A stretch of 22,735 nucleotides of DNA, taken from positions 1-22,735 of the IMG/VR virus record IMGVR_UViG_3300030382_004532; one strand, given 5' to 3'. A program made the translations under genes and the position numbers. Each line of letters starts with the position of its first letter. Within the stretch, counting starts at the first letter, position 1. Origin of the DNA: a virus. The notes under the pieces were generated by a model. That model saw nothing but the letters and a program-made list of their open reading frames with translations, had not been told where the DNA came from and ran no database searches. This document shows positions 1-16,724 of this stretch, piece after piece.

Positions 1-116
1 AAATTTTCTGTTTTGTTACACCTAAGACAATACCTAACAATGCCTCCTAATGGGTGCAAAGATTTATTGCTCCATTCATGGTATATATTAAACCAACATA
101 AAAGTTTTTGGATCAT
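1..116 (-). CDS. Small Cys-motif protein, 3' end cut by window edge
   Basis: An ATG at 116 opens a frame that stays open for 38 codons to the window edge. It begins MIQKLLCWFN and contains a CLRCNKTE segment, a single CxxC knuckle. Its ATG overlaps the stop of the 42-codon gene upstream (ATGA), and a GGGAG purine run sits just before it, so translation is probably coupled. Short phage proteins with an N-terminal hydrophobic/aromatic stretch and one C-terminal CxxC are common and of unknown role (DUF1660-like proteins look similar). I do not recognise a specific function. Confidence 0.5.
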   Translation of the reverse strand, partial: MIQKLLCWFNIYHEWSNKSLHPLGGIVRYCLRCNKTEN

Positions 117-241
117 ACTTCCCACTCCCAAATCCAATTTGCTATATCCCTATAAAACATTTCTTTTCGTAAACTTATATCAGGGTTTATATATTTATCT
201 TCAAAGTATGAATGTAGTATTCGTCTTAACCAACGTTTCAT
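113..241 (-). CDS. Hypothetical protein, 42 aa
   Basis: This is a 42-codon frame beginning MKRWLRRILHSY and ending IANWIWEWEV. The start overlaps the end of the HNH reading frame upstream (GTATGA) and is preceded by AAGGGTGGT, a usable SD. The end overlaps the next start by ATGA. The N-terminus is basic and the C-terminus is rich in Trp and acidic residues. No family is recognised. The case for a real gene is the SD and the two overlapping junctions, which match the style of the rest of the operon. Confidence 0.5.
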   Translation of the reverse strand: MKRWLRRILHSYFEDKYINPDISLRKEMFYRDIANWIWEWEV

Positions 242-897
242 ACCACCCTTATATTGATAATAGACATTTTACTAAATAATTTAATCCACTTTTTCCTGTC
301 GTGGTTAGTTTTTGTATGACAACTATGGCATAAAGTAATAAGGCTTATAGGATCACTATTCATCTTATTATAATCAATATGATGGACATGGTGTTTTCTT
401 TCTACTTGTTCTAACCCACATAATCTACAACAATAATTATCTCTTTTTCTAATTAATTCTTTTCAATTCTTCATTAAAATCAAATCCATAATCTCGAGAA
501 GTAATACCACCAGCCCAATTAGGATTATTTTCACCTCTCATATCGAGTCTTTTTTACCAAGATTTATTAATCTTAATTTTTTACGAGTTTCTTTTGAAAA
601 AATTTTACCTTTATGAGCTTCACTTCTTCGTTTTCTTTCTTCATTTGTAAATATTTTATTATGCATTGGATTCTTAATACCTAATTTGCATTTAGACATT
701 TTCTTTTTAGTTTCTTCAGAATGTTTTCTATTCCACATAGAACATTTTTCTCTTGTGCGAGTCTTTTTTAAAGTTTCTTTTTGTTCCTCTGTCCATTTTT
801 TACCCTTTTGCCCATGACCATTTAAATAAGTATTATATCTTTTAAATTGTTTATTCCACTTAGTTACTTTATTACACCCACACTCGCATAATTTCAT
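238..897 (-). pseudogene. Broken NUMOD3/HNH homing endonuclease
   Basis: The gene starts at 897 with a CxCGC zinc motif (MKLCECGCNKVTKW), followed by NUMOD3-like basic repeats, and hits a stop at 538-540. Beyond the stop the ancestral protein continues in two pieces: GENNPNWAGGITSRD in a shifted frame, then a complete HNH domain (RDNYCCRLCG, HHVHHIDYNK, ITLCHSCHTKTN) back in the original frame, down to a TGA at 238-240. The first shift fits loss of one base in the A6 run at 550-555 and the second fits gain of one base in the A4 run at 460-463. The intact paralogue at 1862-2581 aligns with the same order of parts. The 119-codon N-terminal fragment could still be made but lacks the nuclease. 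Two sequencing errors in homopolymers remain possible. Confidence 0.8.
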
Positions 898-899
898 AA

Positions 900-1865
900 T
901 TAAATTACCCCAAGTTTTTTAAAAACCGCAGAAAATTGTTTTTCCCAAGTATAACAATTGAGACATTTTGCTTGTCCTGCTTTAGCAATTACTAATCTAT
1001 CTTTTCTATTTTTGAACCTGCTATAAAATACTGCCTTCTCAACCAGTTCTTCTGGGCTTCCATAAAATAACATTTCTTTATCTTCTTCAAACAGCTCAGT
1101 TAAAAATGGTTCTCTTTCAGCCAAGTATAAACCACCCAAAGCTGGCACTTCAAAATCTCTCAGTCTTAATTGCTTCATTGCTTTATTTTTATAATCAGCA
1201 TTTTGTAATCCAGAAAATCCCAAACACACTCTTGATTCTAATACTGTTCTTATTAATCTTTTATATGATACCTTCCCCATCAATGTGTAGCTTACACCAG
1301 CATTAACTACATTAAAAAATAAAGGCAATCTATAACCATAAGGCTGCCCAATAAAACTTATATCAAAAGCAAACTTTGGCATATTCCTTTTATCTACTCT
1401 ATAAAACTGTGGATTGACCCCATAAGGAGTTTGTATTACTTTTGCATTAATACCTTTATAATTATCTACAGCAGCAATATTAGTAGTCCAATTCAAATCA
1501 AAAAAAGGCGCTGTCATTATATTGCCACGTTCAAAGGTGTGAACATCATTACACCCAAAATTGACTATCGGTATTTGCCAATTCTTTATTTCCTGTATAT
1601 ACTGAACATCAATCACAGGATCAGACAAATAGCCAAAGATCAAATCTAATGGCTTTTCTGCATGAGCCTTTGAAATCTTTTTCAATAATAAATCATTCAT
1701 TTCTTTTTTTCTTGTCGGTATCCAATCAGGATCATACTGTTTGTATCCATCTGCTTTCCAATCCCACGAAGTCACTGAGTGTCCCATATCTATCAGCGAA
1801 TCAACTAAATTCATTTTTTCCCAATTAAAATATTGAATAGCACAGAATATATTTAATTTTCTCAT
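900..1865 (-). CDS. CgeB-like GT-B glycosyltransferase
   Basis: A 321-aa protein with the two-domain GT-B plan. The N-terminal half begins MRKLNIFCAIQYFNWEK, an acceptor-side Rossmann start. The C-terminal half holds the conserved nucleotide-sugar signature of the Glyco_trans_1_2/CgeB group: RDFEVPALGG at about 236-245, then LAEREPFLTELFEEDKEM and a SPEELVEKA helix. The family transfers a sugar from an activated nucleotide donor; donor and acceptor cannot be read from the sequence. The start overlaps the HNH stop upstream (ATGA). A second, more diverged CgeB-like enzyme lies at 5309-6205, so the two probably act on different linkages of one glycan. The family call is firm; the acceptor is unknown. 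Confidence 0.85.
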   Translation of the reverse strand: MRKLNIFCAIQYFNWEKMNLVDSLIDMGHSVTSWDWKADGYKQYDPDWIPTRKKEMNDLLLKKISKAHAEKPLDLIFGYLSDPVIDVQYIQEIKNWQIPIVNFGCNDVHTFERGNIMTAPFFDLNWTTNIAAVDNYKGINAKVIQTPYGVNPQFYRVDKRNMPKFAFDISFIGQPYGYRLPLFFNVVNAGVSYTLMGKVSYKRLIRTVLESRVCLGFSGLQNADYKNKAMKQLRLRDFEVPALGGLYLAEREPFLTELFEEDKEMLFYGSPEELVEKAVFYSRFKNRKDRLVIAKAGQAKCLNCYTWEKQFSAVFKKLGVI

Positions 1866-2581
1866 TTAATAACCCTCACTTTAATACGTAACATTTTGTT
1901 AAAAAATTTAAACCATTTATCTCTATTAAAATTTGTTTTAGTGTGACAAGATTTACACAAAGAAATTAAGTAATTAGGATTAATGTTATCTTTATCATAA
2001 TCAATATGATGAACATCAAGTTTACTGTGAAACTTACTTCCGCTTTTTACTCCACAAAGTCTGCAGCAATAGCTGTCTCGTTGCCTAATAGACTCTTTTA
2101 AAGTATCTGTCCAATTAAAGTTATATGGCAACTTAGAAATACCTCCCTTCCAAGCATGAGATTTATTTCCTTTTTGTGCCTCACCTATTTTCCTTCTAAT
2201 TTCAAAAGACAAATGCTTACCCCAATTAGGATGTTTTTCTTTTGCACAAGCACCTTTATGAGACAAACTTAATTTTTCTTTTAATTTAGTAGAAAATTTT
2301 TTGCCAAAATTTGGATGATTTCTTTTATCTTTTAAACAATTTTTAGCTGCAACACTCATTTTCCTTTTTGATTCGTCAGACATTTTCTTTTCCAACATAT
2401 ATCTTGCATTATTCTTACTTATTTTATTTTTAGATTCTTTTGTATGTTTAAAACCTTTTAAAGATTTTGATATCTTATTACAAGTTTCAACTGATCGTTT
2501 TTTATTCTTATTAAAATGTCCTCTTTTCCAACACCCTGTTTTGTTGTGTTCTCCACAGCCACACTTACATAGTTTTTTCAT
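1862..2581 (-). CDS. NUMOD3/HNH homing-type endonuclease (intact)
   Basis: A 239-aa protein. Residues 5-9 form a CKCGC zinc motif. About 30-140 is a series of NUMOD3-type basic modules (SVETCNKISKSLKG, SHKGACAKEKHPNWGKHLS, GEAQKGNKSHAWKGG), known DNA-contacting elements of phage homing endonucleases. The C-terminus is an HNH nuclease: CCRLCG at 172-177, VHHIDYDKDN at 190-199, CKSCHTKTN at 209-217, with paired zinc cysteines and the catalytic HH. It overlaps both neighbours by ATGA, so this free-standing mobile gene is integrated seamlessly into the operon. It is a paralogue of the broken gene at 238-897. The cut site is not identifiable. Confidence 0.92.
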   Translation of the reverse strand: MKKLCKCGCGEHNKTGCWKRGHFNKNKKRSVETCNKISKSLKGFKHTKESKNKISKNNARYMLEKKMSDESKRKMSVAAKNCLKDKRNHPNFGKKFSTKLKEKLSLSHKGACAKEKHPNWGKHLSFEIRRKIGEAQKGNKSHAWKGGISKLPYNFNWTDTLKESIRQRDSYCCRLCGVKSGSKFHSKLDVHHIDYDKDNINPNYLISLCKSCHTKTNFNRDKWFKFFNKMLRIKVRVIK

Positions 2582-3093
2582 CTTCTATTCACCTCAAATA
2601 ATCTACTATAAATTTCATATGGAGCATTATCATCTCCATTCGTTAATACACTTTTACTATTCCACAGCAAAGGTTTAATCTTATCGTCAATTTCTTTTGC
2701 TTGTTCTTCTGTTTCAACTCTACCTGACTCAATATATGGTTTTACTCTGTTTATAAAAACATTTGTATTATCATAGCTATCAAATATATCATGAACAAAT
2801 GAAATAAAACTTTCCGGATAATTTTTTGGCATGTATATTAATGTCAACAGTAATGGTGAGTCAGTTATAGCATAATCAACTCTTCCTTTTAATCTTTCCA
2901 ACTTTCTATTTTGGTTTGCAAAAATATATAACTGGTCTTTTAAAATATCACGACTGTTATCCCATACAACATCTTTAGCAAACTCATTTACTAATTCCAC
3001 TGACATGCGTCTACTTTTCATCAGATGGAACAACCCAGCTGCTGCAGTACTCTTACCGCAACCAGGACCACCGAATAAATTTATTACTTTCAT
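2578..3093 (-). CDS. P-loop NTPase/kinase, AAA_28-like
   Basis: A 171-aa protein with a textbook Walker A loop, GGPGCGKST, at residues 8-16. An acidic DYAITDSP segment at about 73-80 resembles the lid/Walker B region of the AAA_28 (NadR/Ttd14-like) family of small kinases. Length is normal for a phage nucleotide or small-molecule kinase. The substrate cannot be assigned; in this context a sugar, nucleoside or cofactor is equally possible. The start overlaps the methyltransferase stop (ATGA) and the end overlaps the HNH start (ATGA), so it is translated as part of the accessory operon. Confidence 0.8.
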   Translation of the reverse strand: MKVINLFGGPGCGKSTAAAGLFHLMKSRRMSVELVNEFAKDVVWDNSRDILKDQLYIFANQNRKLERLKGRVDYAITDSPLLLTLIYMPKNYPESFISFVHDIFDSYDNTNVFINRVKPYIESGRVETEEQAKEIDDKIKPLLWNSKSVLTNGDDNAPYEIYSRLFEVNRR

Positions 3094-3806
3094 ATTTTAT
3101 CAATAGTTAAACACACAGGCATGATTCTGCCTTTATGTATTGGATTATCTGTAACATATAAATCATGTAATGTATTTGAATCTAATCTCATTAAGTCATT
3201 TCTATCTATCCCTTGATAACCAAGTAAAGTACCAAAAGAAATATTCATCTCATTTACCCAATCTAAATAAATATCAGTAGTTAAAATAACAATACCACCT
3301 TTTCTTGTTACTCTCAATGCCTCAGTTATTACTTTTTTTCTTATTGGGTATTCAGCAAGAACCTCATCTCCTTTTTTTATTTTTCCTGTAAATTGATTAA
3401 ATATCATATTAGTAGGAACATGCTCTAACACATTAATCAACAATGCTGCATCAAACTGTTCATCTTTAAAACTTAAATCAGCGCAGTTATTATGTACTAC
3501 TTTCATATTTATACTTTGAGATGCTTCCTTCATATCATCCCAACTCTTCTCATCATAATTATCTACACAGGTAACTTTATACATATCATTTGATATTAAA
3601 AATTTGGAAAATGCGGCATCTCCCGCACCTATATCTATTATTTCCGCACACCTATGAGTTTTTTCTTTTATAAGTTCATACACAAAAGGATATTCCCACA
3701 TTCTTGTATTATCTGTTCTCAACTTTGGTTGTTGACTCATCTTATGAATCAAAGGAGCATGCCTTAGACACCATGTTCTTGAGGGTAAGTAATGTTGTAT
3801 TTTCAT
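3090..3806 (-). CDS. SAM-dependent methyltransferase (class I)
   Basis: A 238-aa protein with the class I Rossmann motifs in order: motif I IDIGAGDAA at 58-66, the acidic ribose-binding end of strand 2 (CVDNYD, about 80-85), NNCADLSF at 106-113, and FDAALLINVLEHV at 118-130, as in Methyltransf_11. A later ALRVTRKGGIVILTT segment matches the conserved post-motif strand. The family transfers a methyl group from SAM to a small molecule, sugar or protein. Its position among glycosyltransferases and next to a radical SAM enzyme suggests sugar or lipid decoration, but that is inference. The N-terminal 50 residues are not typical of the family and may bind the substrate. Confidence 0.85.
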   Translation of the reverse strand: MKIQHYLPSRTWCLRHAPLIHKMSQQPKLRTDNTRMWEYPFVYELIKEKTHRCAEIIDIGAGDAAFSKFLISNDMYKVTCVDNYDEKSWDDMKEASQSINMKVVHNNCADLSFKDEQFDAALLINVLEHVPTNMIFNQFTGKIKKGDEVLAEYPIRKKVITEALRVTRKGGIVILTTDIYLDWVNEMNISFGTLLGYQGIDRNDLMRLDSNTLHDLYVTDNPIHKGRIMPVCLTIDKI

Positions 3807-3808
3807 AT

Positions 3809-3913
3809 TCAGCCAAAAAATTTATAAAATAATTCTTTCAATAAAGGAGACAAAATCTCCTCAATAATCCTAAAAACTGCTATTAAAAGTAGCACTTGAT
3901 TAAAAGTCATCAT
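3809..3913 (-). CDS. 34-aa hydrophobic membrane peptide
   Basis: A 34-codon frame beginning MMTFNQVLLLIAVFRIIEE and ending LFYKFFG. It starts on the base after the TAA of the upstream 75-aa gene, whose last codons GAGGAG supply an ideal SD, and it ends two bases before the methyltransferase ATG. The N-terminal half is one short hydrophobic helix; the rest is amphipathic. It could be a minor membrane protein or a holin partner. No family is recognised. The exact junctions on both sides are the main evidence that it is a gene. Confidence 0.6.
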   Translation of the reverse strand: MMTFNQVLLLIAVFRIIEEILSPLLKELFYKFFG

Positions 3914-4141
3914 TTACTCCTCATGGAAAGTTTTTAATCTTGAAACATCCTTTATCAAATCTTTAATATTTTCCCATTGTTTTACATCTGTTTGTTTTTT
4001 ATCACTCAATGATTTTATCGCACCGCTATTTGTATATACAGTTAACATTGTCCATCCCGCTAACGACAAAAATATAGTAATAACCATACCCAATAGCATT
4101 ACAAACATTTTGTCTTTAAACTTTTGAAAGGCATTTTCCAT
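3914..4141 (-). CDS. 75-aa membrane-anchored coiled-coil protein
   Basis: A short cytoplasmic N-terminus (MENAFQKFKDK) is followed by one transmembrane helix at about 12-35 (MFVMLLGMVITIFLSLAGWT) and a charged, probably helical tail. This resembles the XhlA-like/minor lysis or membrane-tether proteins of phages, but the sequence is not diagnostic. The helix and the following TVYTNSGAIKSL resemble GWTLVSTVETSKQVAVL in the 115-aa protein at 20140-20487, so the two may be distant paralogues. It overlaps the radical SAM gene by 26 nt and has an AGGAGA SD inside that gene. Confidence 0.7.
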   Translation of the reverse strand: MENAFQKFKDKMFVMLLGMVITIFLSLAGWTMLTVYTNSGAIKSLSDKKQTDVKQWENIKDLIKDVSRLKTFHEE

Positions 4142-5312
4142 TTTTAAACATCTCCTCTATTTTGTCTCTTTCCTGTATTAATTGTTCTGTAGTCAAATAA
4201 GGTGTTCTGACAGAAGATTTATATTCTCCAGCTCTACCTTTATAAAATTCTGGAACACCATCGCTCCAATCAATATCATATTTATTTTTCTCATTCCATA
4301 TTCTTGTATCGGGAAACGGCTGAAATAAGGATATGTCAAAATCATCTGGCTCTGCTTTTAAAAGCCATGCTATAGTATCATCTATACTATCTAAAGATTC
4401 TCCAGGAAGACCTAACATTAAAAACACCTTTGTTCTTATACCGTATTGCTTAAGCATCTTAATAGCATTTAATGCTTTTTGACTATTAAAGCCTTTACCT
4501 ATACTTTTTAATATACTATCATCTCCAGACTCTATTCCAATACCGACTTCCTTACACCCTGTCTGTTGCAATGTTTGGCACATATCTTCATTTACAAAAT
4601 TAACATGAGTAAAACATCTGTATATAATATCTTTTGATAACATATGTAAAGCTATATCTGCTAATCTATCTTTCTTCATAGTAAAAATATCATCAAAGAA
4701 CATCAATGATTGGTAGCCAAGTTTATATATCTCATCTATTTCTTTACGAACTCTATCCACACTTGCCATCCTAAGTTTTTTATTATTACCATCTACACAA
4801 AAAGCACAAGCAAAAGGACAGCCTCTTGAAGTAATAATTGTAGTTGTATTCCTTCCATCTATTTCATATTTATATCCATCAATTAAACCCCTTGCTGGGA
4901 AATGCACTTTATTAATATCTGGCGACTCATACACTTGTATTTCGTTAAGACCACTACCAATAAATTCTATTATATCTTCTACAAAATTTTCACCTTCCCC
5001 TTTAACCACAACATCAAAATATTCTTTATCTTCTTCTGTTAAACTTTGAACACCACAACCACCTATCACTGTTTTTTTACCATTACAATAATCTTTAACA
5101 AATCGTTTTGCTATTTCTATTTGAGGTGAAGTTATTGTTATAAAAACTATATCTTCATCAGGTTCGTTCAATCCTCTCCCAGCAAAGTCATACCAAACTG
5201 GCTCATGTCCTTCTTTTCTTAAAGCAGAAGCAATATACAAAATCCCCAATGGAGGAAATACTTTATCATCAATTAAAAAGGGAGAAGGTAAGTTTACACA
5301 AGCTATTTTCAC
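4116..5312 (-). CDS. Radical SAM enzyme with N-terminal B12-binding domain
   Basis: A 398-aa protein if started at the GTG at 5312. That GTG overlaps the upstream TGA (GTGA) and has AAAGGAGAG about 3 nt upstream; an ATG at 5333 would overlap the neighbour more and has no better SD. The N-terminus has the cobalamin-domain pattern of class B radical SAM proteins (FPPLGILYIASALRKEGHEP, then TVIGGCGV and VVVKGEGE). The 4Fe-4S site is GCPFACAFC (C165, C169, C172), followed by FFDDIFT. The family performs radical methylation, ring rearrangement or other C-H chemistry. No DxHxxG cobalamin motif is evident, so B12 may not be bound in the usual way. Lying between glycosyltransferases and a methyltransferase, it may modify a sugar or lipid carrier. 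Confidence 0.88.
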   Translation of the reverse strand: MKIACVNLPSPFLIDDKVFPPLGILYIASALRKEGHEPVWYDFAGRGLNEPDEDIVFITITSPQIEIAKRFVKDYCNGKKTVIGGCGVQSLTEEDKEYFDVVVKGEGENFVEDIIEFIGSGLNEIQVYESPDINKVHFPARGLIDGYKYEIDGRNTTTIITSRGCPFACAFCVDGNNKKLRMASVDRVRKEIDEIYKLGYQSLMFFDDIFTMKKDRLADIALHMLSKDIIYRCFTHVNFVNEDMCQTLQQTGCKEVGIGIESGDDSILKSIGKGFNSQKALNAIKMLKQYGIRTKVFLMLGLPGESLDSIDDTIAWLLKAEPDDFDISLFQPFPDTRIWNEKNKYDIDWSDGVPEFYKGRAGEYKSSVRTPYLTTEQLIQERDKIEEMFKNGKCLSKV

Positions 5313-6205
5313 ACACTCTCCTTTACTTTCCATTCATCTATATCTTTTAGCATCTTTTTAAACCTATGTTGAGCTAAATGATTATTCATTACACAATTAT
5401 AAGTTCTATCTGCCAGACTATTTATCTTGTGTGGATTGTCAAAATAGTATCTTAATTTTTTAATCAAATCATCAAAATCATACCAGCCAATAATCTCATC
5501 TTCATTAAATAAATCCATTAAGTCATCACTATATTTTGTAAACACAGCAGCACCGCAAGCACCTGCTTCAAACACCCTCTGAGACACACCAGATTCTCCC
5601 TGAGCAGCATTGATAACTATCTTTGACCTATTTAATAGGTCTGAATAAGCATGCCCATATACTCCTTGTTTGAAGCAAAGTTTCCTATTTTTAAAATGAT
5701 ACTTAACTGTGTTCATCATTTTAATCCTGTACTCATTAAAATTTCCTATGAAACAAATGTCTATGTCTCTAACCGAATTCATATTATTAAAAAACATATC
5801 TTGACCTGTCCAGCTTGGCATCCATTTAACTTCTTTACATCCAAGATACTTAAAAGCATTAATAGCATTTCCATCAAAAGTATAAACAATGTCATAGCAA
5901 TGTCCAACTCTTTTTATAAGCCTTGCATAATTTGGATACTGAAGAATATCATCTGGAAAATATAACACTCTTGGTTGGGAGCACACTTGTATACTTTCTG
6001 GGTTCAACATCTCCCCTTTGAATACAATAGTAGCATTATATGATTTGAATAAATTATTCTTATAAGATTCCGAATATCTAAGATCAGTTATTGTTAAATC
6101 TATGCCTAATTTTTTTCCTTCTTCAGTAGCCAACCAATTCACAATTCTACATTCATTACCATGAGGAAAATTTGATTTAACTGGAGCTATTAGATTTATT
6201 TTCAT
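5309..6205 (-). CDS. CgeB-like GT-B glycosyltransferase (second)
   Basis: A 298-aa protein. The N-terminus MKINLIAPVKSNFPHGNE starts a Rossmann domain. VLYFPDDILQYPNYARL and IVYTFDGNAINAFKYLGC are typical acceptor-domain segments of the CgeB/DUF3880 group. The donor-site signature is VSQRVFEAGACGAAVFT at about 207-223, followed by DDLMDLFNEDEIIGWYDFDDL. It is translationally coupled to the GT9 gene upstream (GT9 ends at 6202) and to the radical SAM gene downstream (GTGA). It differs strongly from the CgeB-like enzyme at 900-1865, so a different acceptor is likely. Confidence 0.82.
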   Translation of the reverse strand: MKINLIAPVKSNFPHGNECRIVNWLATEEGKKLGIDLTITDLRYSESYKNNLFKSYNATIVFKGEMLNPESIQVCSQPRVLYFPDDILQYPNYARLIKRVGHCYDIVYTFDGNAINAFKYLGCKEVKWMPSWTGQDMFFNNMNSVRDIDICFIGNFNEYRIKMMNTVKYHFKNRKLCFKQGVYGHAYSDLLNRSKIVINAAQGESGVSQRVFEAGACGAAVFTKYSDDLMDLFNEDEIIGWYDFDDLIKKLRYYFDNPHKINSLADRTYNCVMNNHLAQHRFKKMLKDIDEWKVKESV

Positions 6206-7164
6206 AATTTTAAATACCTATCAACATGCTCCATTACCATATCTACTGTAATATTTTGCATACACTTATTATCTTTACAATACCCAAACCTTTGTGTATA
6301 CAAACAAGGACTACATTCTAATTTTTCATCTCTCAACACAACACCATTTGCTCTCCATGCTTTATTTTTACTTGGCAATGTTGGTCCAAATAACTGTATA
6401 ACTGGTGTATTTACTGCAGCAGCAATATGCATTGGTCCTGAGTCAGTACTAATCATTAGATCACATTGGGATATAAGGTAAGCTATTTCTGTTATAGGCT
6501 GATTCCAATGAAAAATATTCAATGATCCTTTGCTTCCTATATTATTTTCTGCAATTTTATCTCCAATATAATCAATATCTTCTTTTTCCCAATAACTCAA
6601 TATCATATGAGTGTCAACATCACCATCTAATCGTTCTAATAACTCAACCCAATTATCATTGTCCCATCTTTTCTTCTTCCACCACACTTCAGGTCTTGAT
6701 CCTATATGAAGGCAAATATTTTTTTTATTTCTTTCTTTAGACATAATATCGCAAACTGTAACAGGACAATACATCATTGGTGGCATCTTAGTTACTTCAC
6801 ACTTTTCATAATAACCTAATTTCTCTGCCACCTTAAAATATAATTCTACTTCGTGCATTCCATTCAAAAAATATTTAAAAGGAGATTCTGATTCTTTTGT
6901 TATCTTCCAATTCAGCTTTGGTAGCATTCTATCTCCTTCTCCCCATATGTAAAAAGCTTCATCGTATTTTTTATCTGGAGAGTAAAACCCTAAGTCAAAC
7001 CAAGCATTTATTATATCGGTAATTGGCTCATATCTTAAATCGCCTTTTGGGACATCTAATAATATGTCTACATGGTAATCCATTTTTTGTAGACCGATAA
7101 TGGTAGGAGTAAGCATTATAAAGTTTCCAATGCCATTCTTAAAACTGAGGGCTATATTCTTCAT
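6202..7164 (-). CDS. Glycosyltransferase family 9 (heptosyltransferase-like)
   Basis: A 320-aa protein starting at the ATG at 7164, which overlaps the previous TGA (TGATG); a TTG codon just before it is unnecessary. Family 9 features are clear: GIGNFIMLTP at 11-20, CLHIGSRPEVWWKKKRW at about 151-167, and the nucleotide-sugar site STDSGPMHIAAAVNTPVIQL at 239-258 followed by FGPT. The C-terminal cysteines 284, 287, 296 and 301 match the usual GT9 Cys cluster. In bacteria these enzymes add heptose or related sugars to lipopolysaccharide. A viral copy could decorate the host envelope or a viral glycan. The family call is firm; the sugar is not readable. Confidence 0.93.
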   Translation of the reverse strand: MKNIALSFKNGIGNFIMLTPTIIGLQKMDYHVDILLDVPKGDLRYEPITDIINAWFDLGFYSPDKKYDEAFYIWGEGDRMLPKLNWKITKESESPFKYFLNGMHEVELYFKVAEKLGYYEKCEVTKMPPMMYCPVTVCDIMSKERNKKNICLHIGSRPEVWWKKKRWDNDNWVELLERLDGDVDTHMILSYWEKEDIDYIGDKIAENNIGSKGSLNIFHWNQPITEIAYLISQCDLMISTDSGPMHIAAAVNTPVIQLFGPTLPSKNKAWRANGVVLRDEKLECSPCLYTQRFGYCKDNKCMQNITVDMVMEHVDRYLKL

Positions 7165-7322
7165 CAATCCTTTATGAAATTTTCTAATTCGTATAAGAGA
7201 TGTGTTGGGTTTTGGTCAAAGTCTTCTTCTAAATAACTTGAATTGCTTTTCAAATCATTTTCACAAAGACAATGGTAAAATATTTCACCACACTCCCTGC
7301 AATAAAATCTACTATCTGGCAT
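7164..7322 (-). CDS. 52-aa zinc-ribbon-like protein
   Basis: A 52-codon frame beginning MPDSRFYCRECGEIFYHCLC, so C8, C11, H17, C18 and C20 could hold a zinc ion; the rest is acidic. It begins two bases after the upstream stop, with AAGAGGAAA as SD formed by the last codons of the HExxH gene, and its TGA overlaps the GT9 ATG. Small zinc-ribbon proteins are common in phage genomes as nucleic-acid or protein binders. No specific function can be given. Confidence 0.6.
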   Translation of the reverse strand: MPDSRFYCRECGEIFYHCLCENDLKSNSSYLEEDFDQNPTHLLYELENFIKD

Positions 7323-7324
7323 AA

Positions 7325-7732
7325 TTATTTCCTCTTCTTTTTATTATACTGCTTTATCTTTATAAGGACTTTGCCATACAAAGACTCAGCCAACTCTATA
7401 AAATTAGCTTCACTTTTTAAGCACACATCATACTGCTCTGGTGGCTCATCATCTTCCCAATGCTTATCTAAATGGAAACAAACATGAAGTAATTCGTGTA
7501 ACAATACTTTTTGAAAATGTATGTCGTGGCTTTGACTGTCTCCACACACCCATACAACAGCCTTGCCTCTGTAAAAATATGAAACTCCTTCATGGTTATT
7601 CTCTGTATGGAACACATCATCATTTGATAAATCCCATTGCTTCTTTACATATCTATTAGCTTTAGCAAGAGGTTCTTTCAAAAAGAATCTAACTACACTG
7701 CCTGTACGATCATCCGTTATTGAGAATATCAT
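7325..7732 (-). CDS. HExxH zinc-metallopeptidase-like protein
   Basis: A 135-aa protein with HELLH at residues 79-83 in a typical zinc helix (VLLHELLHVCFHLDKH), and a second conserved-looking helix EANFIELAESLYG at 108-120 that could supply the third ligand (E113). The order resembles small SprT- or ImmA-type phage metallopeptidases, but the match is limited to the motif. I chose the ATG at 7732 (MIFSITDDRTGS): the earlier ATG at 7786 would overlap the upstream gene by 77 bases and adds a hydrophobic run translated from that gene's other frame. The chosen start still overlaps the upstream gene by 23 bases. The C-terminus is very basic (KKKRK). Substrate unknown. Confidence 0.7.
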   Translation of the reverse strand: MIFSITDDRTGSVVRFFLKEPLAKANRYVKKQWDLSNDDVFHTENNHEGVSYFYRGKAVVWVCGDSQSHDIHFQKVLLHELLHVCFHLDKHWEDDEPPEQYDVCLKSEANFIELAESLYGKVLIKIKQYNKKKRK

Positions 7733-7931
7733 CTTTATACCATAAATAATAATTTCTTGTATTAATTGACACACCAAATACAGCAATAACTAACAAGCCA
7801 TACACTTCCATGGTTATAGCTACATATATCCAAGACAATGAAGCTAAAATATTAACAATAAACCCTGTCTTGTATTTATTGCCTACACACCAAGACCCAA
7901 ATAATTCTGTTATACCTGCTAACCAATCCAT
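7710..7931 (-). CDS. Small PnuC-like membrane protein
   Basis: A 73-aa protein with two predicted transmembrane helices, about 23-39 and 42-56. The segment SWIYVAITMEVYGLLVIAVF followed by GVSINTRNYYLW resembles one repeat unit of PnuC-like vitamin transporters, which many phages carry as very short proteins. At this length it cannot be a complete transporter by itself and may work as an oligomer or have lost that role. It starts at an ATG overlapping the upstream TAA (TAATG). Confidence 0.6.
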   Translation of the reverse strand: MDWLAGITELFGSWCVGNKYKTGFIVNILASLSWIYVAITMEVYGLLVIAVFGVSINTRNYYLWYKDDILNNG

Positions 7932-8128
7932 TACTTATTCTCATAAAAAATAGAAATTACAATATAATGAAGAAAAGTATATTTATGTCCTCCACCAATT
8001 GTTCTACTACCTGACATAGTATTTTGTTTCCGTTCTTGAACTATTATTGTGTTGTTTTTTTCAAACCATTCATTTATTTCTTTTTCCATTTCATTAACAT
8101 CTGTACCGCCAAACATTTTTACTTTCAT
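7931..8128 (-). CDS. Small protein, Cse60-like fold suspected
   Basis: A 65-aa protein from the ATG at 8128, which overlaps the stop of the upstream 28-aa gene (ATGA) and has GGAGG 12 bases upstream. The order MKVKMFGGTDVNEMEKEINE, a helix, a strand (TIIVQERKQ), a glycine-rich turn (RTIGGGHKYT) and a final strand (FLHYIVISIFYE) matches the plan of the Cse60/DUF2758 sporulation-associated small proteins, also found in phages. Their function is unknown. The resemblance is by pattern only. Confidence 0.6.
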   Translation of the reverse strand: MKVKMFGGTDVNEMEKEINEWFEKNNTIIVQERKQNTMSGSRTIGGGHKYTFLHYIVISIFYENK

Positions 8129-8211
8129 AAAATAGGTCTTCCTCCTGTACCACCCATATACCATGCTCCCAAAGCAGATACTATAACAATAATTGTAATA
8201 ATTGTAATCAT
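8125..8211 (-). CDS. 28-aa single-pass membrane microprotein
   Basis: This short frame reads MITIITIIVIVSALGAWYM and then a glycine-rich end GGTGGRPIL. Residues 1-19 form one uninterrupted hydrophobic helix. It is coupled on both sides by ATGA overlaps, to the 75-aa membrane gene before and to the Cse60-like gene after. The GGAGGAAG inside its 3' end is the SD for the next gene. No homologue is recognised. Its position within a run of membrane proteins (7710-8435) suggests a shared membrane role. Confidence 0.6.
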   Translation of the reverse strand: MITIITIIVIVSALGAWYMGGTGGRPIL

Positions 8212-8435
8212 AAAAAACTTGAGATCAATAATGCAGTAGCTGTACCAGACACAGCACCACAGGAATAAATTATTTTACCTTTTAAATCACAGCTTGCCAT
8301 TGAATTGACATTAAAAGCCCATGTCAAAGATATACAGAAACTCGTAATCAAACTTAAAATATATTTATCGTTAGCAATAAACCACGTGCTCAAAGTAATG
8401 AGCATTACCAACAAATATGATCTAAAAAATATCAT
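8208..8435 (-). CDS. 75-aa multi-pass membrane protein
   Basis: It contains two to three hydrophobic helices: FFRSYLLVMLITLSTWFIA, YILSLITSFCISLTWAFNV and the C-terminal SCGAVSGTATALLISSFL. Length and layout match small phage membrane proteins with an N-terminal helix pair and a Gly/Ala-rich final helix. No enzymatic motif is visible. The start overlaps the phosphoesterase stop (ATGA), the end overlaps the 28-aa gene (ATGA). A holin role is possible but nothing here proves it. Confidence 0.65.
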   Translation of the reverse strand: MIFFRSYLLVMLITLSTWFIANDKYILSLITSFCISLTWAFNVNSMASCDLKGKIIYSCGAVSGTATALLISSFL

Positions 8436-9283
8436 ATGACCACTTTATCTATACTATCAATATCACCATTACTTCCATTAAGAACTACATAACCTGTCTC
8501 AAGAGGATCATACATAGCTTGTTCTGAATAAGTAGATACACCAATCAAATTCGTCTTCATAAAAGAACCTGTGTTGCAATACCACCTATCATCTTCTGGT
8601 ATAATCTTAGAACTTCCGTGTCTCTTAGAATAAACACTTTGTAATTTCTTTTCATCCGAGATAAGATAGAGTCTTGATTTTGGACTAACTACCCTCAGAC
8701 CATGGGTGTGTCCCATGAACATAGCCAAACAATCTGCTGCTTTATTTTTTAACTTCCTTTTTAAAGACTCATCCATATTTGCTTCTCTACGAATAATATC
8801 ACCAGCACTTGATTTAATTATACCCGCACCATGACAACAATAAATCTTGTATAAAATTTTATTGCTTTTGCTTTTTTCTCTTAACGTAATAACAGAAGCA
8901 AATGTACCATAGTTAATACCAAGCTTTTTACACATTGTCCGAACCTTTGAGCCATAAATTCTACTCAACCCAAAATCATGGTTACCTTCATGAGCAGAAA
9001 TAATTTTTTCTTTGATTGGCTTTATGGTTTGATAGATATTCTCATATTGATTTTCAGGTAAGAGTAATTCTGGATCAGCTACTTCTAAATCAAAAAACTT
9101 ATGGTTACTCGGTCTTCCTTCAACCCAATCTCCTATTCCAACTACAAAAGCATTCTCTTGTTTTTTAACTTCATCAACAGCATCATCAAATGCCTTTGTA
9201 TTATGAGCTAAAGTGCCTCTGTGTATATCTCCAAAAAAATAAATCTTATGCTTATCAGGTACGTTGTAACTTATTAGTTGCAT
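8432..9283 (-). CDS. Calcineurin-like metallophosphoesterase
   Basis: A 283-aa protein with all five metal-site motifs in order: GDIHRG at 18-23, GIGDW at 49-53, GNHD at 100-103, CHGAG at about 150-154 and GHTHG at 191-195. The family hydrolyses phosphomono- or diesters with two metal ions; substrates range from nucleic acid to nucleotide sugars. An extra loop (residues 55-95) sits between motifs 2 and 3. The start overlaps the zinc-protein gene upstream by 10 bases and has AAGGAGA as SD. Substrate unknown; a nucleotide-sugar or nucleic-acid role would both fit. Confidence 0.9.
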   Translation of the reverse strand: MQLISYNVPDKHKIYFFGDIHRGTLAHNTKAFDDAVDEVKKQENAFVVGIGDWVEGRPSNHKFFDLEVADPELLLPENQYENIYQTIKPIKEKIISAHEGNHDFGLSRIYGSKVRTMCKKLGINYGTFASVITLREKSKSNKILYKIYCCHGAGIIKSSAGDIIRREANMDESLKRKLKNKAADCLAMFMGHTHGLRVVSPKSRLYLISDEKKLQSVYSKRHGSSKIIPEDDRWYCNTGSFMKTNLIGVSTYSEQAMYDPLETGYVVLNGSNGDIDSIDKVVI

Positions 9284-9618
9284 TTATTATATCTCCTTTG
9301 TGAAATAGCATGCCTTTCTTTACAAGCATGACAACGATAAGCTTCCCCCACCTCTGCTCTTAGTTTAATACCACAGGCATGACACCTACCTTCTTTCTTA
9401 AGCTGTATATTCTCTTGTCTTCTTTGCTTAAGGTGATAATCACACCTTATGCTTTTTTCAGATGAAACTGGTTCAGGACAATACCTACATAAACCCAGCA
9501 TACTCTGTCTTATTTGATAACGAATTTTACTTACATGACTTTCAGTCCAATGTGGTTTTATTCTTGAACGTGCCTCTTGATCAGCCAATTCAAAAATTAT
9601 ATCTCTTGTTATTCTCAT
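9274..9618 (-). CDS. Double zinc-ribbon protein
   Basis: A 114-aa basic protein with two probable zinc sites: CRYC...CDYH (C44, C47, C59, H62) and CHACG...CHACK (C79, C82, C96, C99). A helix rich in Arg and Lys lies between them (HLKQRRQENIQLKKEGR). This repeated CxxC...R...EGRCxxCG layout is common in phage DNA-associated proteins of unknown role. The start overlaps the GT4 stop (ATGA). DNA or RNA binding is a reasonable inference, not shown. Confidence 0.7.
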   Translation of the reverse strand: MRITRDIIFELADQEARSRIKPHWTESHVSKIRYQIRQSMLGLCRYCPEPVSSEKSIRCDYHLKQRRQENIQLKKEGRCHACGIKLRAEVGEAYRCHACKERHAISQRRYNKCN

Positions 9619-10655
9619 TCACCTACAATAACACCTACCAATGCTTTACCATTAGTTTCCCATGACCATTCGTTTCTCATTTTTAAAGTATTCTTTTTCA
9701 TTTCCAATATTGTCTCTGGACAATCTTCAAACCAATTAAAAGCCCAAGCAAGTGCATGTTCTAATCTATCTCTATCTAATGTGTAACCCGTCTTTTCGTT
9801 TATAACAAATTCATTCATCGGTGCTTCATCAATTGTCAGTATAGGAATACCGCACCCTATCGCTTCCAAGAATGACAGACCCAATCCTTCAACCTTTGAA
9901 GGCAACACACAGCAATCAGAGCACTGATAAAGAGTAAGAATTTCACTGCGAGTAAGATTTTGCCTACCGATGATAACATGTCCTAAATTATAATTAACAG
10001 GTTTCTGATTATTAGACAACAATGAATGCACATACAATAGTGATCTTGGTACTAACTCACCTTGTTCTGTAACATCTATTCTGTTCTTATTTAAAAAACC
10101 TCTTAAGGTTGGAACTTTGCCAGACAAATCTTCATCTGTATCTTTACCAACAGGATGGAAATATTTTATTGGTTTAGTATCTAACAAAAGTTCTTGTGAA
10201 GGTTTGAATATCTCTTCATCAAACCCCCACTTAACATATACTGCTTGATCATATTCTTTAAAAAAAGAAAAACACTTTTTAGTAGGACAAATTATCCTAT
10301 CAAAATCTTTATATAAATTAACATCTTTTATATATTCCCACATTGGGATTGATATAGTTTCAACTGCAACATTAATACTACCGATAACTTTTATTAAGTC
10401 ATCTACAGAATCAAACCCAAGAAACACACATCTACTAATATCATTTTTCTTAATCCAAAAATTTATAACATCAGCAGGTATTGTAAACTCTGGATACCAC
10501 TCTACACTTGGAACATTAAATTCAGGTTCACGAGTATTATTATTTCTCGCCAGTACAAATACAGAATGCCCATACTTAATGAGTTGTTTCCGTATGTCCA
10601 ATACTGTGTAACCATATCCGCCTCTTTTGAACGGAGCAACTATTCCAATATTCAC
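9615..10655 (-). CDS. Glycosyltransferase family 4 (GT-B)
   Basis: A 346-aa protein beginning MNIGIVAPFKRGGYGYTVLD, a glycine-rich N-terminal Rossmann loop. The C-terminal domain has the family 4 donor site PSKVEGLGLSFLEAIGCGIP with the EX7E pair E256 and E264, preceded by TLYQCSDCCVL and followed by NEFVINEKTGYTL. This is a retaining GT4 enzyme; the donor is probably a nucleotide sugar. The start is a GTG that overlaps the upstream TGA (GTGA). The middle part (residues 150-225) is less typical and may define acceptor choice. Confidence 0.92.
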   Translation of the reverse strand: MNIGIVAPFKRGGYGYTVLDIRKQLIKYGHSVFVLARNNNTREPEFNVPSVEWYPEFTIPADVINFWIKKNDISRCVFLGFDSVDDLIKVIGSINVAVETISIPMWEYIKDVNLYKDFDRIICPTKKCFSFFKEYDQAVYVKWGFDEEIFKPSQELLLDTKPIKYFHPVGKDTDEDLSGKVPTLRGFLNKNRIDVTEQGELVPRSLLYVHSLLSNNQKPVNYNLGHVIIGRQNLTRSEILTLYQCSDCCVLPSKVEGLGLSFLEAIGCGIPILTIDEAPMNEFVINEKTGYTLDRDRLEHALAWAFNWFEDCPETILEMKKNTLKMRNEWSWETNGKALVGVIVGE

Positions 10656-10789
10656 TTAGTTTCCTTTTCCTTAGATTCTTCTGAATCCTTTACACTTTTC
10701 TTTTTAAAAGTATTCTCCCATCTTTTGTGGTAATCTTTTTTTCTGTATCTATTCCCTTTACACAAAAGGTTTTCCCCTCTAATTGCCAT
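10652..10789 (-). CDS. 45-aa basic protein
   Basis: A 45-codon frame beginning MAIRGENLLCKGNRYRKKDY and ending ESKEKETK. A strong SD (AGGAGAG) lies about 6 bases before the ATG, inside the end of the 101-aa gene, and the stop overlaps the GT4 start. It is extremely Lys/Arg-rich, and its KE-rich tail resembles the C-terminus of the 101-aa neighbour. Function not recognised; it may bind nucleic acid or pack inside the head. Confidence 0.6.
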   Translation of the reverse strand: MAIRGENLLCKGNRYRKKDYHKRWENTFKKKSVKDSEESKEKETK

Positions 10790-11084
10790 ACCTGCCTCTC
10801 CTTTTTAATCTTTTAGATTCTTCCTTCTTTTCTTTCTTTGACTCTTCTTCCTTTGGAGCTTCTTTTTTTTCTTCAGCTTTAGCAACCATCTTATTAGCAG
10901 GTGCTTTCATTTCTTTTTGAGGTTTATTACAACCATCGACAATATCAAATGATCCAGGATAATCCCTCATTACCTCATCAGCTTTTTCTTTAGTGTATTC
11001 TTTTTCAGTACCTACCTGATGACCGTCAAAAACCTTCTTGTATCCTGGTGCTCCCTTATAAACTAATATCTTATGTGTACTCAT
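10779..11084 (-). CDS. 101-aa protein with KE-rich tail
   Basis: Residues 1-50 form a compact segment (HKILVYKGAPGYKKVFDGHQ, then EYTKEKADEVMRDYPGSFDI) that resembles small phage domains built around a glycine turn and a helix ending in a P-G-x-F motif. Residues 55-101 are a low-complexity Lys/Glu/Ala tail. Such two-part proteins often sit near capsid genes as minor head or fibre-attachment proteins. The start overlaps the upstream stop (ATGA). No enzymatic motif is present. Confidence 0.65.
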   Translation of the reverse strand: MSTHKILVYKGAPGYKKVFDGHQVGTEKEYTKEKADEVMRDYPGSFDIVDGCNKPQKEMKAPANKMVAKAEEKKEAPKEEESKKEKKEESKRLKRRGRYGN

Positions 11085-11284
11085 ATTCTTTCCTCCTCTG
11101 TTAAATTAAAATATTGATCTTTACTTAAATTTTTAAATTTCTTAAAGCCTTTGGCTACTTGCCATTCTCGCTTCTTTTTATTTTTATCCCACCTTTCTTC
11201 TCTTGTATATCTTTGACAAGATGGTTTATTTTTATTCCTTCCATACTTCTTTGTCCCACCTTTACCTTTCTTATGTGTAGGCAC
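11081..11284 (-). CDS. 67-aa highly basic protein
   Basis: A 67-aa protein, about one third Lys and Arg (MPTHKKGKGGTKKYGRNKNK, then CQRYTREERWDKNKKKRE). It starts at a GTG with GGAGGT 7 bases upstream, which lies in the last codons of the GT2 gene. The CQRYxxExRxxKNK pattern recurs in small phage proteins of unknown role. Nucleic-acid binding or packaging into the head is plausible from charge alone. Confidence 0.65.
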   Translation of the reverse strand: MPTHKKGKGGTKKYGRNKNKPSCQRYTREERWDKNKKKREWQVAKGFKKFKNLSKDQYFNLTEEERI

Positions 11285-12604
11285 TTACACAACCTCCATT
11301 CCTTTATTATACTGTTTTTCTCCTTTGCTTACTGTATTCATAGCATTATTCAATATTTCTGGACTCAAAAATTCTTTAGTCATATCCTTTGCTTTTTTAT
11401 CTTTATCTCTTTTTTCAATTGCCTCTTTTAAAAGTTTAATATTGTGCAAAGTTGCTGGGCAGCCTTCTCCTGTCTTTTTATTTGTCTTCCATTCCAGCAC
11501 TCTTCTAAAACACTTCAATGCTTCATCTAATTCACCAAGTTGACTAAAATTTACCGCCATGCCTTCCCACGGATACCAGCTATACACTCTTGCCATAAGA
11601 AAGTATGTAGTATCTGGCAAAGGCAATTGTGAAGCTATATACCACCAATGGTTTGATTCATGAAGTTTATTCAAATTCTTTTTTGCTAAAGCAAGGTAAT
11701 GATAAAGTTCAGCCCTGTCCCACCTATTCCTTAATCCTTTATAACCCCACTCAACCATCTCTTTATACTTCTTGACTTTATATAATGAATTCATAGCTGA
11801 TATACAAATCTGTGCAGCAATATCTGGATCATGTTGATCTGATAATTTAAAAGATTTTTTATAATGTTTAATAGCATTTGTTACATCATTTGCTTCATCT
11901 AAACTATCAGCATAATAAAAATTATCTCTAACATCCTTTGGCTTTTCACTTACTGACTTACCAAGCTTCCTTACATTCATATCAGTACGCATTCCAGTAC
12001 GCATTTGTTTTCTTTTCTCAGGCATATTGTGAATAAAGAAAACCTCTGGGAGTCTACATATTATTTTTTTATCATCATCAAAAAGATAATTATGTACTTT
12101 CCTATGAAACTTTACGTGCCCAGTATTTTTAAAAAATATTGGTCGTCTGAATATCACATCTGGTATATCATTATCATCTACATCAATTTCTATATTAGGA
12201 GAAAAAACATTTGCTTCAGTAGGATTTATCTTTAGAAGTTCTTGTATAACTTCTCTTCCATCATACTTCCCAGGATTATTAGCTGTTGTACGCATCACTT
12301 CGTGGCCATCAGGAAACATTATCCAAGCATCTTTATCAGCTTTATCTATTAAAGCATTTCTATGTTTGCTAAAATCTTCACCCCAATCAAAGAATGATAC
12401 TTCATCAGTGTACTTTCTAACTATCTCTTCTGTATTATCTTTAGTATTATTATCTATCCCAATGATCAGCCTATCATATAAAGGCTTACCATCATCCCAA
12501 TGAAATGCTTTTATTGCTTGTTCAATAGTTTCTGCCTCATCTTTTAAAATAAACATGAGGATAAACTTTACTGGATGTTCATTTCCATCTCTACCCATTA
12601 CCAT
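11285..12604 (-). CDS. GT2 glycosyltransferase fused to TPR-like repeats
   Basis: A 439-aa protein. Residues 12-200 are a GT-A fold: FILMFILKDEAETIEQAIKA at the N-terminus, IIGIDNNTKDNTEEIVRKY, then DFSKHRNALIDKADKDAWIM leading to FPDGHEVM at about 97-104. Family members usually show DADE at that metal/nucleotide site, so the DGHE form is unusual. Residues 225-370 read as TPR-like helix pairs (NAIKHYKKSFKLSDQHDPDI, ELYHYLALAKKNLNKLHESN, ELDEALKCFRRVLEW), which in other GT2-TPR proteins hold the protein acceptor. GGGAGAG is the SD. A protein acceptor, perhaps a virion protein, is inferred. Confidence 0.88.
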   Translation of the reverse strand: MVMGRDGNEHPVKFILMFILKDEAETIEQAIKAFHWDDGKPLYDRLIIGIDNNTKDNTEEIVRKYTDEVSFFDWGEDFSKHRNALIDKADKDAWIMFPDGHEVMRTTANNPGKYDGREVIQELLKINPTEANVFSPNIEIDVDDNDIPDVIFRRPIFFKNTGHVKFHRKVHNYLFDDDKKIICRLPEVFFIHNMPEKRKQMRTGMRTDMNVRKLGKSVSEKPKDVRDNFYYADSLDEANDVTNAIKHYKKSFKLSDQHDPDIAAQICISAMNSLYKVKKYKEMVEWGYKGLRNRWDRAELYHYLALAKKNLNKLHESNHWWYIASQLPLPDTTYFLMARVYSWYPWEGMAVNFSQLGELDEALKCFRRVLEWKTNKKTGEGCPATLHNIKLLKEAIEKRDKDKKAKDMTKEFLSPEILNNAMNTVSKGEKQYNKGMEVV

Positions 12605-12610
12605 TAAACT

Positions 12611-12629
12611 CTCCCAATAAAAAAGGGAG
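12611..12629 (-). promoter_or_regulatory. SD-sequestering hairpin before the GT2 gene
   Basis: In the transcript, CTCCC (12629-12625) can pair with GGGAG (12615-12611), the core of the GT2 gene SD, across a U-rich nine-base loop. The same CTCCC is the 3' arm of the terminator at 12616-12672, so the two structures exclude each other. Read-through transcripts could thus have the GT2 start masked or open. This is by base-pairing only. Confidence 0.35.
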
Positions 12630-12672
12630 CATACAAAATTCTCATTTGATTGAAAATATGTATCTCCCTTTT
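12616..12672 (-). terminator. Rho-independent-type terminator after the decoration gene
   Basis: In the minus-strand transcript, AAAAGGGAGATAC pairs with GTATGCTCCCTTTT (13 pairs, one bulged C) around a loop of about 25 bases, followed by a run of six U within UUUUUUAUU. It lies 32 bases beyond the end of the 99-aa gene and ends the head-gene transcript before the glycosyltransferase island. A second U-rich stretch (GGAGGTTTTTATTTT, near 12674-12690) precedes it. The long loop lowers certainty. Confidence 0.6.
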
Positions 12673-12704
12673 AGTTAAAATAAAAACCTCCGAAGATTTT
12701 AAAC

Positions 12705-14592: not shown

Positions 14593-14604
14593 AAGAAATT
14601 CCTC

Positions 14605-15735: not shown

Positions 15736-15762
15736 ATTGTGACCTCTTATATTTTAGCCCAA

Positions 15763-15818
15763 TAAAAAACCTCAAAACCATTAGGCAAATCCTGCCTTTT
15801 GACTTTGAGGTTTTCCTC
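15763..15818 (-). terminator. Terminator/attenuator-like hairpin before the protease gene
   Basis: In the minus-strand transcript AAAACCTCAAA (15814-15804 read in reverse) pairs perfectly with TTTGAGGTTTT (15776-15766), with an inner AGGC/GCCT stem and a following U6 run (TTTTTTATTGGG). Upstream, GAGG-AAAA-CCTC (15818-15807) is a small hairpin that shares the CCTC arm, so the two exclude each other. It lies between the 83-aa gene and the protease and is either a simple terminator or an attenuator of the head genes. The TTTTTTATTGGG tail is identical to that of the terminator at 12616-12672. Confidence 0.6.
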
Positions 15819-15838
15819 CAAAATCCTGTTGTTAATTA

Positions 15839-15867
15839 ATTATAATATAAAATGTTAAAAATAAAAA
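15839..15867 (-). promoter_or_regulatory. Possible promoter for the protease-capsid operon
   Basis: A perfect -10 hexamer TATAAT (15844-15839) lies in an AT-rich gap; the hexamer 17 bases upstream, TTTTTA (15867-15862), is a poor -35. Phased A-tracts just upstream (15869-15902) could bend DNA or act as an UP-like element. Transcription would begin near 15832 and pass through the hairpin at 15763-15818. In DNA this AT-rich a chance TATAAT is common, so confidence is limited. Confidence 0.35.
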
Positions 15868-15868
15868 T

Positions 15869-15902
15869 GTTTTTTACAAAGTTTTTACAAAGTTTTTACA
15901 TC
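15869..15902. repeat. Three 11-bp-phased A-tract repeats
   Basis: On the plus strand the unit GTTTTTACAAA occurs three times in a row (12, 11 and 11 bases, the last ending ATC). The minus strand therefore carries A-tracts once per helical turn, a layout that bends DNA. It lies directly after the stop of the 83-aa gene and upstream of the -10 element at 15839. It could also be a binding site for a regulator. Confidence 0.7.
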
Positions 15903-16152: not shown

Positions 16153-16163
16153 AAGTTTAGCTC

Positions 16164-16723: not shown

Positions 16724-16724
16724 A

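Follow-up and report, generated by a model that had tools for sequence, protein, structure and literature searches.

The decoration of virions with glycans has been described for the mycobacteriophage Che8 and its relatives (Freeman et al. 2023, as cited in PMC11256854 and PMC12619734). A further point of reference is flagellin, on which the protein GmaR, consisting of a family 2 glycosyltransferase (GT2) and TPR repeats, acts (PMC9638930) and which is bound by the TPR domain of FlmG (PMC7591256). Here, we analyzed a cassette of glycosyltransferase (GT) genes, headed by a GT2-TPR enzyme, of an uncultured tailed phage, on the virus record IMGVR_UViG_3300030382_004532 of IMG/VR (hereafter the window, i.e., the entire record of 22,735 bp with a GC content of about 29-38% in 1-kb steps). 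All five GTs are encoded on the minus strand behind the genes of the major capsid protein and a putative decoration protein. The original prediction, made from the letters of the window, had named five GTs of four types in this place, and solid Pfam matches bear this out for each of them (Table 1). We judge the chances to be about even that the cassette glycosylates one or several virion proteins in the cytoplasm. Among the conceivable acceptors a virion protein is the best supported because of the nearness of the leading enzyme to SunS and GmaR, the lack of lipid-carrier machinery, of a thymidylate-synthase enzyme and of an integrase in the sequence seen, and the position in the late operon.

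GT2-TPR comprises 439 residues, with the Pfam GT2 domain at 23-104 and the TPR at 346-371. Its AlphaFold model consists of an N-terminal alpha/beta part and a helical part (residues 196-429), and the structure search returned TPR folds up to Z 17.5, the TPR part dominating the match list. The peptide S-glycosyltransferase SunS (3e-8) and the flagellin transferase GmaR (1.4e-7, covering profile positions 18-199) are the closest PDB relatives, and this homology speaks for the predicted role of the TPR-bearing GT2 as the candidate for modifying a protein acceptor. The architecture of GmaR, an N-terminal GT2 followed by a TPR domain, is present, while the C-terminal antirepressor domain is missing, as GT2-TPR (439 residues, compared with 637 in GmaR) ends behind the TPR helices. 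With 33.8 bits versus a cut-off of 350, it is not a member of the SunS family TIGR04195. The enzyme was found in every relative covering its place, the motifs DGHE and VHN are kept across the phage lineages, and the ratio of nonsynonymous to synonymous substitution rates (dN/dS) amounts to 0.09-0.14. Bacterial relatives were limited to two Clostridia loci of about 25% identity with uninformative neighborhoods. Since the viral library lists additional GT2 proteins from viruses whose predicted structure is similar, this type of GT as such is not new. Based on these sequence data, we assign GT2-TPR as a putative protein-acceptor, initiating enzyme.

A terminator directly behind the decoration gene was confirmed as well. 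The stretch between this gene and GT2-TPR (AAAGGGAG...CUCCCUUUUUU) contains a hairpin followed by a U-tract (z = -4.1), a stability equaled by none of 200 shuffles. It was revealed by reading and folding the sequence, having been missed by a terminator pattern scan. The hairpin is identical at that place in two close relatives (L002, L003), and the more diverged lineage G004, with a capsid identity of 65%, carries a hairpin and a U-run of different sequence in the corresponding place, the stretch as a whole being less exceptional there (z = -2.0). That the position is kept and the sequence is not would be consistent with selection favoring more capsid than GT mRNA. The decoration protein itself is a possible glycan acceptor. 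Its Ser/Thr content reaches 22% in comparison to 11% overall; as the capsid protein is also rich in these residues, we do not take this as strong evidence.

Extension of the analysis toward related phages recovered the cassette that the original prediction had suggested looking for, including in the lineage with 65% capsid identity. Three close relatives (L002, L003, L004) keep the order capsid, decoration, GT2-TPR, and GT4 at 82-98% identity of capsid and GTs. In G004, the order capsid, decoration, GT2-TPR, GT9, CgeB1, radical-SAM, methyltransferase MT1, and CgeB2 is preserved, with the sugar genes sharing 48-60% protein identity with those of the window. There, CgeB2 is followed by a second methyltransferase (MT2), a GDP-fucose-synthase homolog, a gp6-like connector, and more head-tail genes, and further on by a GT-B, GT4b, the tail tube, the tape measure, and a GT-A-like protein. 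Another relative, G005, also extends past the end of the window, with an AdoMet-decarboxylase-like gene, DUF3326, GT2b, MT2, the GDP-fucose-synthase homolog, and connectors, then GT-B, GT4b, tail, tape measure, and GT-A-like genes. Positions 1-119 of the window align with 4297-4415 of G005, directly ahead of the next GT gene, a further GT2. Because the contig stops within the cassette, the five GTs of the window are an undercount; the structural region of this family would comprise up to nine GT or GT-like genes and two methyltransferases, a count that sums genes from different records. Every tested gene is under purifying selection, with dN/dS values of 0.04-0.26 for the pathway genes and 0.05-0.08 for capsid and portal. 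The number of GTs, the sugar-modifying and donor enzymes, the conservation, and this selection support the multi-step glycan of the original prediction. Whether the window represents the first half of a cytoplasmic glycosylation pathway of the phage, placed between the capsid/decoration and the connector genes, is in our estimation evenly poised.

None of the distant capsid relatives (78 loci, many of them short fragments) showed the sugar genes, with 32 matches for the positive control. Screening of 50,697 phage records by tblastn yielded no relative of GT2-TPR, GT4, CgeB1, or CgeB2, GT9 and the radical-SAM enzyme had no more than remote matches, and the tail protein found no match in the phage records. 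The tape-measure proteins differ strongly between the syntenic relatives (1895 aa in G004, 18497-24184; 1064 aa in G005, 13976-17170), which implies very different tail lengths.

Next to the leading enzyme, the chain-extending candidates were examined. GT4 is found in L002 and L003 (dN/dS 0.14-0.26) and absent at this place from G004. GT9 scored 80.8 bits against a PF01075 gathering score of 22; its closest NCBIfam model is heptosyltransferase II (under the cut-off), its PDB relatives are 3tov and 1psw, and it fell short of the lipopolysaccharide (LPS) heptosyltransferase equivalogs TIGR02193 (52 vs 185.3 bits) and TIGR02195 (62.8 vs 134.6 bits). Orthologs of GT9 (49%, tblastn) and CgeB1 (52%) are encoded in G004. 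CgeB2 shares 96% identity with G005, 87% with L088, and 60% with G004 at dN/dS values of 0.04-0.09. When CgeB2 is compared with its counterpart L088:3428-4390, DNA identity is 64-76% over the first ~96 codons and 86-91% over most of the remainder, as if an acceptor-side domain had been swapped or were evolving faster. The radical-SAM enzyme has AprD4 as best PDB match (6.5e-24) and matches PhpK (3e-43) and AprD4 (1.8e-27), both under the family cut-off; in respect to the AprD4 diol dehydratase equivalog, it reached 96.4 of 500 bits. We thus regard it as a putative sugar-modifying, AprD4/PhpK-like enzyme. It is 81% identical in L088 and 56% in G004, and MT1 89% and 59%, respectively. The kinase of L088 is partial or truncated, with an HNH sequence adjoining.

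Information on the sugar donor came from a search with GT4b as query, leading to G008, a contig of 65 kb. Read in the orientation of the cassette, it begins with 127 bp that recur without a mismatch at the end of contig L092, which carries the segment of radical-SAM, MT1, CgeB2, GT2b, MT2, and the GDP-fucose-synthase homolog. Based on this identity and on a third contig, L103, that spans the junction, both belong to the same genome, which measures at least 77 kb. Past its tail and replication genes, G008 hosts a sugar island. Therein, a 4,6-dehydratase has GDP-D-glycero-D-manno-heptose 4,6-dehydratase as nearest solved structure (3.4e-69; 237 bits to the heptose enzyme vs 131 bits to GDP-mannose dehydratase), a 3,5-epimerase groups among the GDP-keto-heptose 3,5-epimerases, a kinase is nearest to D,D-heptose kinases (HddA-like), and the adjoining gene is nearest to the guanylyltransferase HddC; E-values to nearest homologs do not prove substrate. 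Two reductase/epimerase homologs, a short-chain dehydrogenase/reductase, an FkbM methyltransferase, and a second B12-type radical-SAM enzyme are encoded as well. We infer that the donor of this relative would be of the GDP-D-glycero-D-manno-heptose type, which fits GT9. The GDP-fucose-synthase homolog of the cassette comes closest to GDP-fucose synthetase of E. coli, which makes a sugar of the fucose type a second candidate for the donor. The same island also encodes a 1136-aa Type ISP restriction-modification-like protein (L106:9503-12913, minus strand) and pyruvate-dehydrogenase E1 alpha/beta-like genes with an HNH gene between them (L107:4335-6933, minus strand), for which service in the synthesis of a branched-chain sugar is speculation. 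A weak sulfotransferase-family match adjoins tail genes of this genome (L108:15774-16373, minus strand); its product could sulfate the glycan.

In the model which we propose, strong transcription of the capsid genes would be followed by partial read-through of the terminator into the GT genes. GT2-TPR would then place the first sugar on one or several virion proteins, i.e., the decoration protein, the capsid, or the tail, with its TPR domain gripping the acceptor in the way in which FlmG, and probably GmaR, hold flagellin. The chain would be lengthened by GT9, by GT4, by the CgeB-like enzymes, and by the GTs past the window, probably including a step in which heptose or 6-deoxyheptose is added. 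Through deoxygenation or C-/O-methylation, the radical-SAM enzyme and the methyltransferases may trim or cap the glycan. The most far-reaching version, a phage whose complex glycoprotein virion contains heptose and is made in the cytoplasm of a probably Gram-negative bacterium with nearly all of the machinery encoded by the phage, is tentative and appears to us somewhat doubtful. If true, this machinery would comprise donor synthesis, a protein-priming GT2-TPR, chain-extending GTs, and radical-SAM and methyl caps. A Gram-negative host is conjectured from signals in G004 that resemble those of lipoproteins, and a marine origin from the IMG numbering.

Several observations weigh against glycosylation of the virion. 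Both GT9 and WaaS/CpsH-like GTs typically belong to the synthesis of LPS core or capsule, and GT2b matches a GtrB-like PHROG. Soluble GTs can use host lipid acceptors without a phage flippase, for which host enzymes could substitute, and the position in a late operon is by itself no proof of a virion target. On the donor side, the HddA and HddC equivalog cut-offs were not reached in G008 and GmhA/GmhB were not identified; the family search never found GT9 and the GDP-heptose genes in one record, with the upstream part of the G008 genome missing. The model of the decoration protein is beta-rich and of low confidence (predicted local distance difference test score, pLDDT, 69), and the structure search with it gave weak matches alone (best Z 5.2), to which no family could be assigned.

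The main rival is a remodeling of the host surface, in which LPS core, O-antigen, or capsule would be altered, e.g., against re-adsorption of progeny or against competing phages. This explanation gains from the proximity of GT9 to LPS heptosyltransferases and of CgeB1 to WaaS/CpsH, from the GDP-heptose genes in a cyanophage sugar cluster, and from the authors' own reading of pelagimyophage GT clusters (PMC7029224) and cyanophage sugar genes (PMC9602691). The membrane side of such pathways was searched in seven records that are fragments: GtrA, the flippase of gtrABC serotype conversion, was absent (control positive), and so were a WecA-type GT (PF00953) and a Polysacc_synt flippase (PF01943; controls positive). 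Open reading frames with at least three hydrophobic segments were not found in the window, G004, G005, or G008. The sequence seen thus lacks flippases, lipid-carrier GTs, and multi-pass membrane proteins, the genes lie in the late virion operon behind the capsid-gene terminator, and the leading enzyme is of the protein-acceptor type. A search for a tyrosine integrase found none, so that nothing points to a lysogen with a benefit from such a change, which counts further against a surface target. Since soluble GTs of the LPS-core type could act on host lipids and the authors of the marine phage studies favor this reading for their own clusters, we consider surface remodeling less likely than a virion target, though by no means improbable.

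T4-type glycosylation of the phage DNA, in which the GTs would modify hydroxylated bases as a shield against restriction, has a precedent in phage GTs able to act on DNA (reviewed in PMC12619734), and the cassette does contain a P-loop kinase. The latter is not conserved, the GTs are part of a structural operon, and up to nine GTs together with heptose donors far exceed the needs of a base. In addition, the thymidylate-synthase family (PF00303), which includes the base hydroxymethylases, was absent from the same seven fragmentary records with a working control, and the relative encodes DNA methylases instead; altogether, this makes a DNA target highly improbable. Loose cargo, i.e., unrelated genes each of other use (such as small-molecule synthesis by the radical-SAM enzyme) without a single pathway, would be in line with the interspersed homing endonucleases and small open reading frames of an active cargo zone and with several genes differing from lineage to lineage. 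The persistence of the core order at 48-60% protein identity, the purifying selection on all tested members, and the biochemical coherence with the donor genes render it improbable. An assembly error, by which a polysaccharide locus of the host would have been attached to the phage contig, had been named as a refutation of the original prediction and can be dismissed with near certainty: nothing was found for it, the synteny recurs in contigs from several metagenomes, and the same junctions are found there and in the diverged lineage.

In respect to the layout of the window, transcription of the minus strand starts with portal, a MuF-type head protein, prohead protease, HK97-type capsid protein, and the 99-aa putative decoration protein, continues with GT2-TPR, GT4, metallophosphoesterase, GT9, the first CgeB-like enzyme, a B12-type radical-SAM enzyme, and methyltransferase, and ends with kinase, homing endonuclease, the second CgeB-like enzyme, and a decayed homing endonuclease. 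Neighboring gene ends mostly overlap or almost abut, the intergenic distances being mostly negative or tiny. The run of GTs drawn by the original prediction from 113 to 12604 stands in its five GTs, with 113-899 belonging to the decayed HNH/NUMOD3 endonuclease; nor is it a run of GTs alone, as radical-SAM enzyme, methyltransferase, kinase, metallophosphoesterase, and homing endonuclease are interspersed.

Table 1. Features of the window in order of transcription.
Feature	Positions	Strand	Evidence
HK97-type major capsid protein	13099-14592	-	PHROG 1623 1.1e-10; Phage_capsid 6.4e-5
Putative decoration protein, 99 aa	12705-13004	-	position; conservation in L002, L003, G004
Intrinsic terminator, hairpin and U-tract	12605-12704	-	z -4.11; same position in L002, L003, G004
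GT2-TPR	11285-12604	-	Pfam Glycos_transf_2 3.9e-6; TPR_2 1.3e-7
GT4-type glycosyltransferase	9615-10655	-	Glycos_transf_1 5.6e-17
Calcineurin-like metallophosphoesterase	8432-9283	-	Metallophos 5.1e-9; PHROG 7339 5.8e-20
GT9, heptosyltransferase-like	6202-7167	-	Glyco_transf_9 1.3e-22
CgeB1, CgeB-like / WaaS-CpsH-like GT	5309-6205	-	Glyco_trans_1_2 2.1e-23; WaaS/CpsH weak, 7e-8
B12-binding radical-SAM enzyme	4116-5333	-	Radical_SAM 5.5e-26; B12-binding 7.5e-8
MT1, class I SAM methyltransferase	3090-3806	-	Methyltransf_11 1e-11
P-loop kinase, accessory	2578-3093	-	AAA_28 1.6e-10; PHROG thymidylate kinase 1.7e-16
NUMOD3-HNH homing endonuclease	1862-2581	-	NUMOD3 1.4e-15; HNH 0.0046
CgeB2, CgeB-like GT	900-1865	-	Glyco_trans_1_2 6.3e-16
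Decayed NUMOD3/HNH homing endonuclease and contig end	1-899	-	NUMOD3 1.2e-7 in 538-897; BLAST to HNH genes

The intact homing endonuclease is a mobile insertion outside of the glycan pathway and was not found between the corresponding neighbors in G004. Related NUMOD3-HNH endonucleases are numerous and occupy varied late-gene sites (1862-2581 and 1-899 of the window, L088, L096/L097, and L106-L109). Upstream, the MuF-type head protein (17777-20137, minus strand) has an ADP-ribosyltransferase-like domain (DRAT 7.5e-13) as its fusion partner, and a metalloprotease-like HEYGH motif lies between the two. A relative of this fusion in L098 (6497-8143) is shorter and lacks the middle part, which suggests a swapping, virion-carried effector. 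The G008 genome furthermore encodes a family A DNA polymerase to which a uracil-DNA-glycosylase domain is fused (L107:12545-14908, minus strand) and five clustered tRNA genes, as predicted from the sequence (L106:1272-1668, minus strand).

Compared with known systems, phages with many sugar genes have already been described; new is the placement in the late operon together with a protein-type GT. Marine phage clusters (cyanophages Bellamy and S-SCSM1, pelagimyophages) likewise hold many GTs, GDP-sugar enzymes, and relatives of heptose kinase and dehydratase. In pelagimyophages, many such genes lie in a hypervariable host-recognition region with tail fibers, and Bellamy has no capsid genes annotated near its sugar cluster, whereas here the GTs are found between capsid, connector, and tail genes. 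In aquatic phages, GT clusters are usually taken to serve the alteration of the host surface, and the present cassette makes the question of virion or surface testable with few genes. Serotype conversion by gtrABC shares the phage-borne GTs but relies on the flippase GtrA and on GtrB/GtrC with a lipid carrier (PMC3688519), none of which was detected in the records searched here. The joining of a GT domain to TPR repeats is common to GmaR and FlmG (PMC9638930, PMC7591256); SunS and GmaR show detectable sequence similarity to GT2-TPR. FlmG is a GT-B and not a GT2.

The parallel to mycobacteriophages drawn by the original prediction holds in part. In the published cases, phage-encoded GTs are likewise thought to modify virion proteins, namely capsid and tail tube. 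Maravista, a relative of the glycosylated phages, carries two GT genes near the 3' end of the genome and not behind the capsid gene (PMC11256854), in contrast to the GTs inside a virion operon, the sugar-modifying enzymes, and the donor genes in a relative found here, where the glycan is deduced from genes. Should the virion turn out to be the target, phage particles would bear glycan coats more widely, and of greater complexity, than one would conclude from the mycobacteriophages. Capsid glycosylation in the chlorovirus PBCV-1 is the closest working analogue of the proposed model. PBCV-1 is a virus of eukaryotic algae, with scattered and early expressed GT genes and an N-linked glycan; as would be the case here, mostly soluble viral GTs, a methyltransferase, and GDP-deoxysugar enzymes work in the cytoplasm to equip the capsid protein with a complex glycan (PMC5408694). 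If the most far-reaching version of the model were true, the cassette would be the bacterial-virus counterpart of chlorovirus capsid glycosylation.

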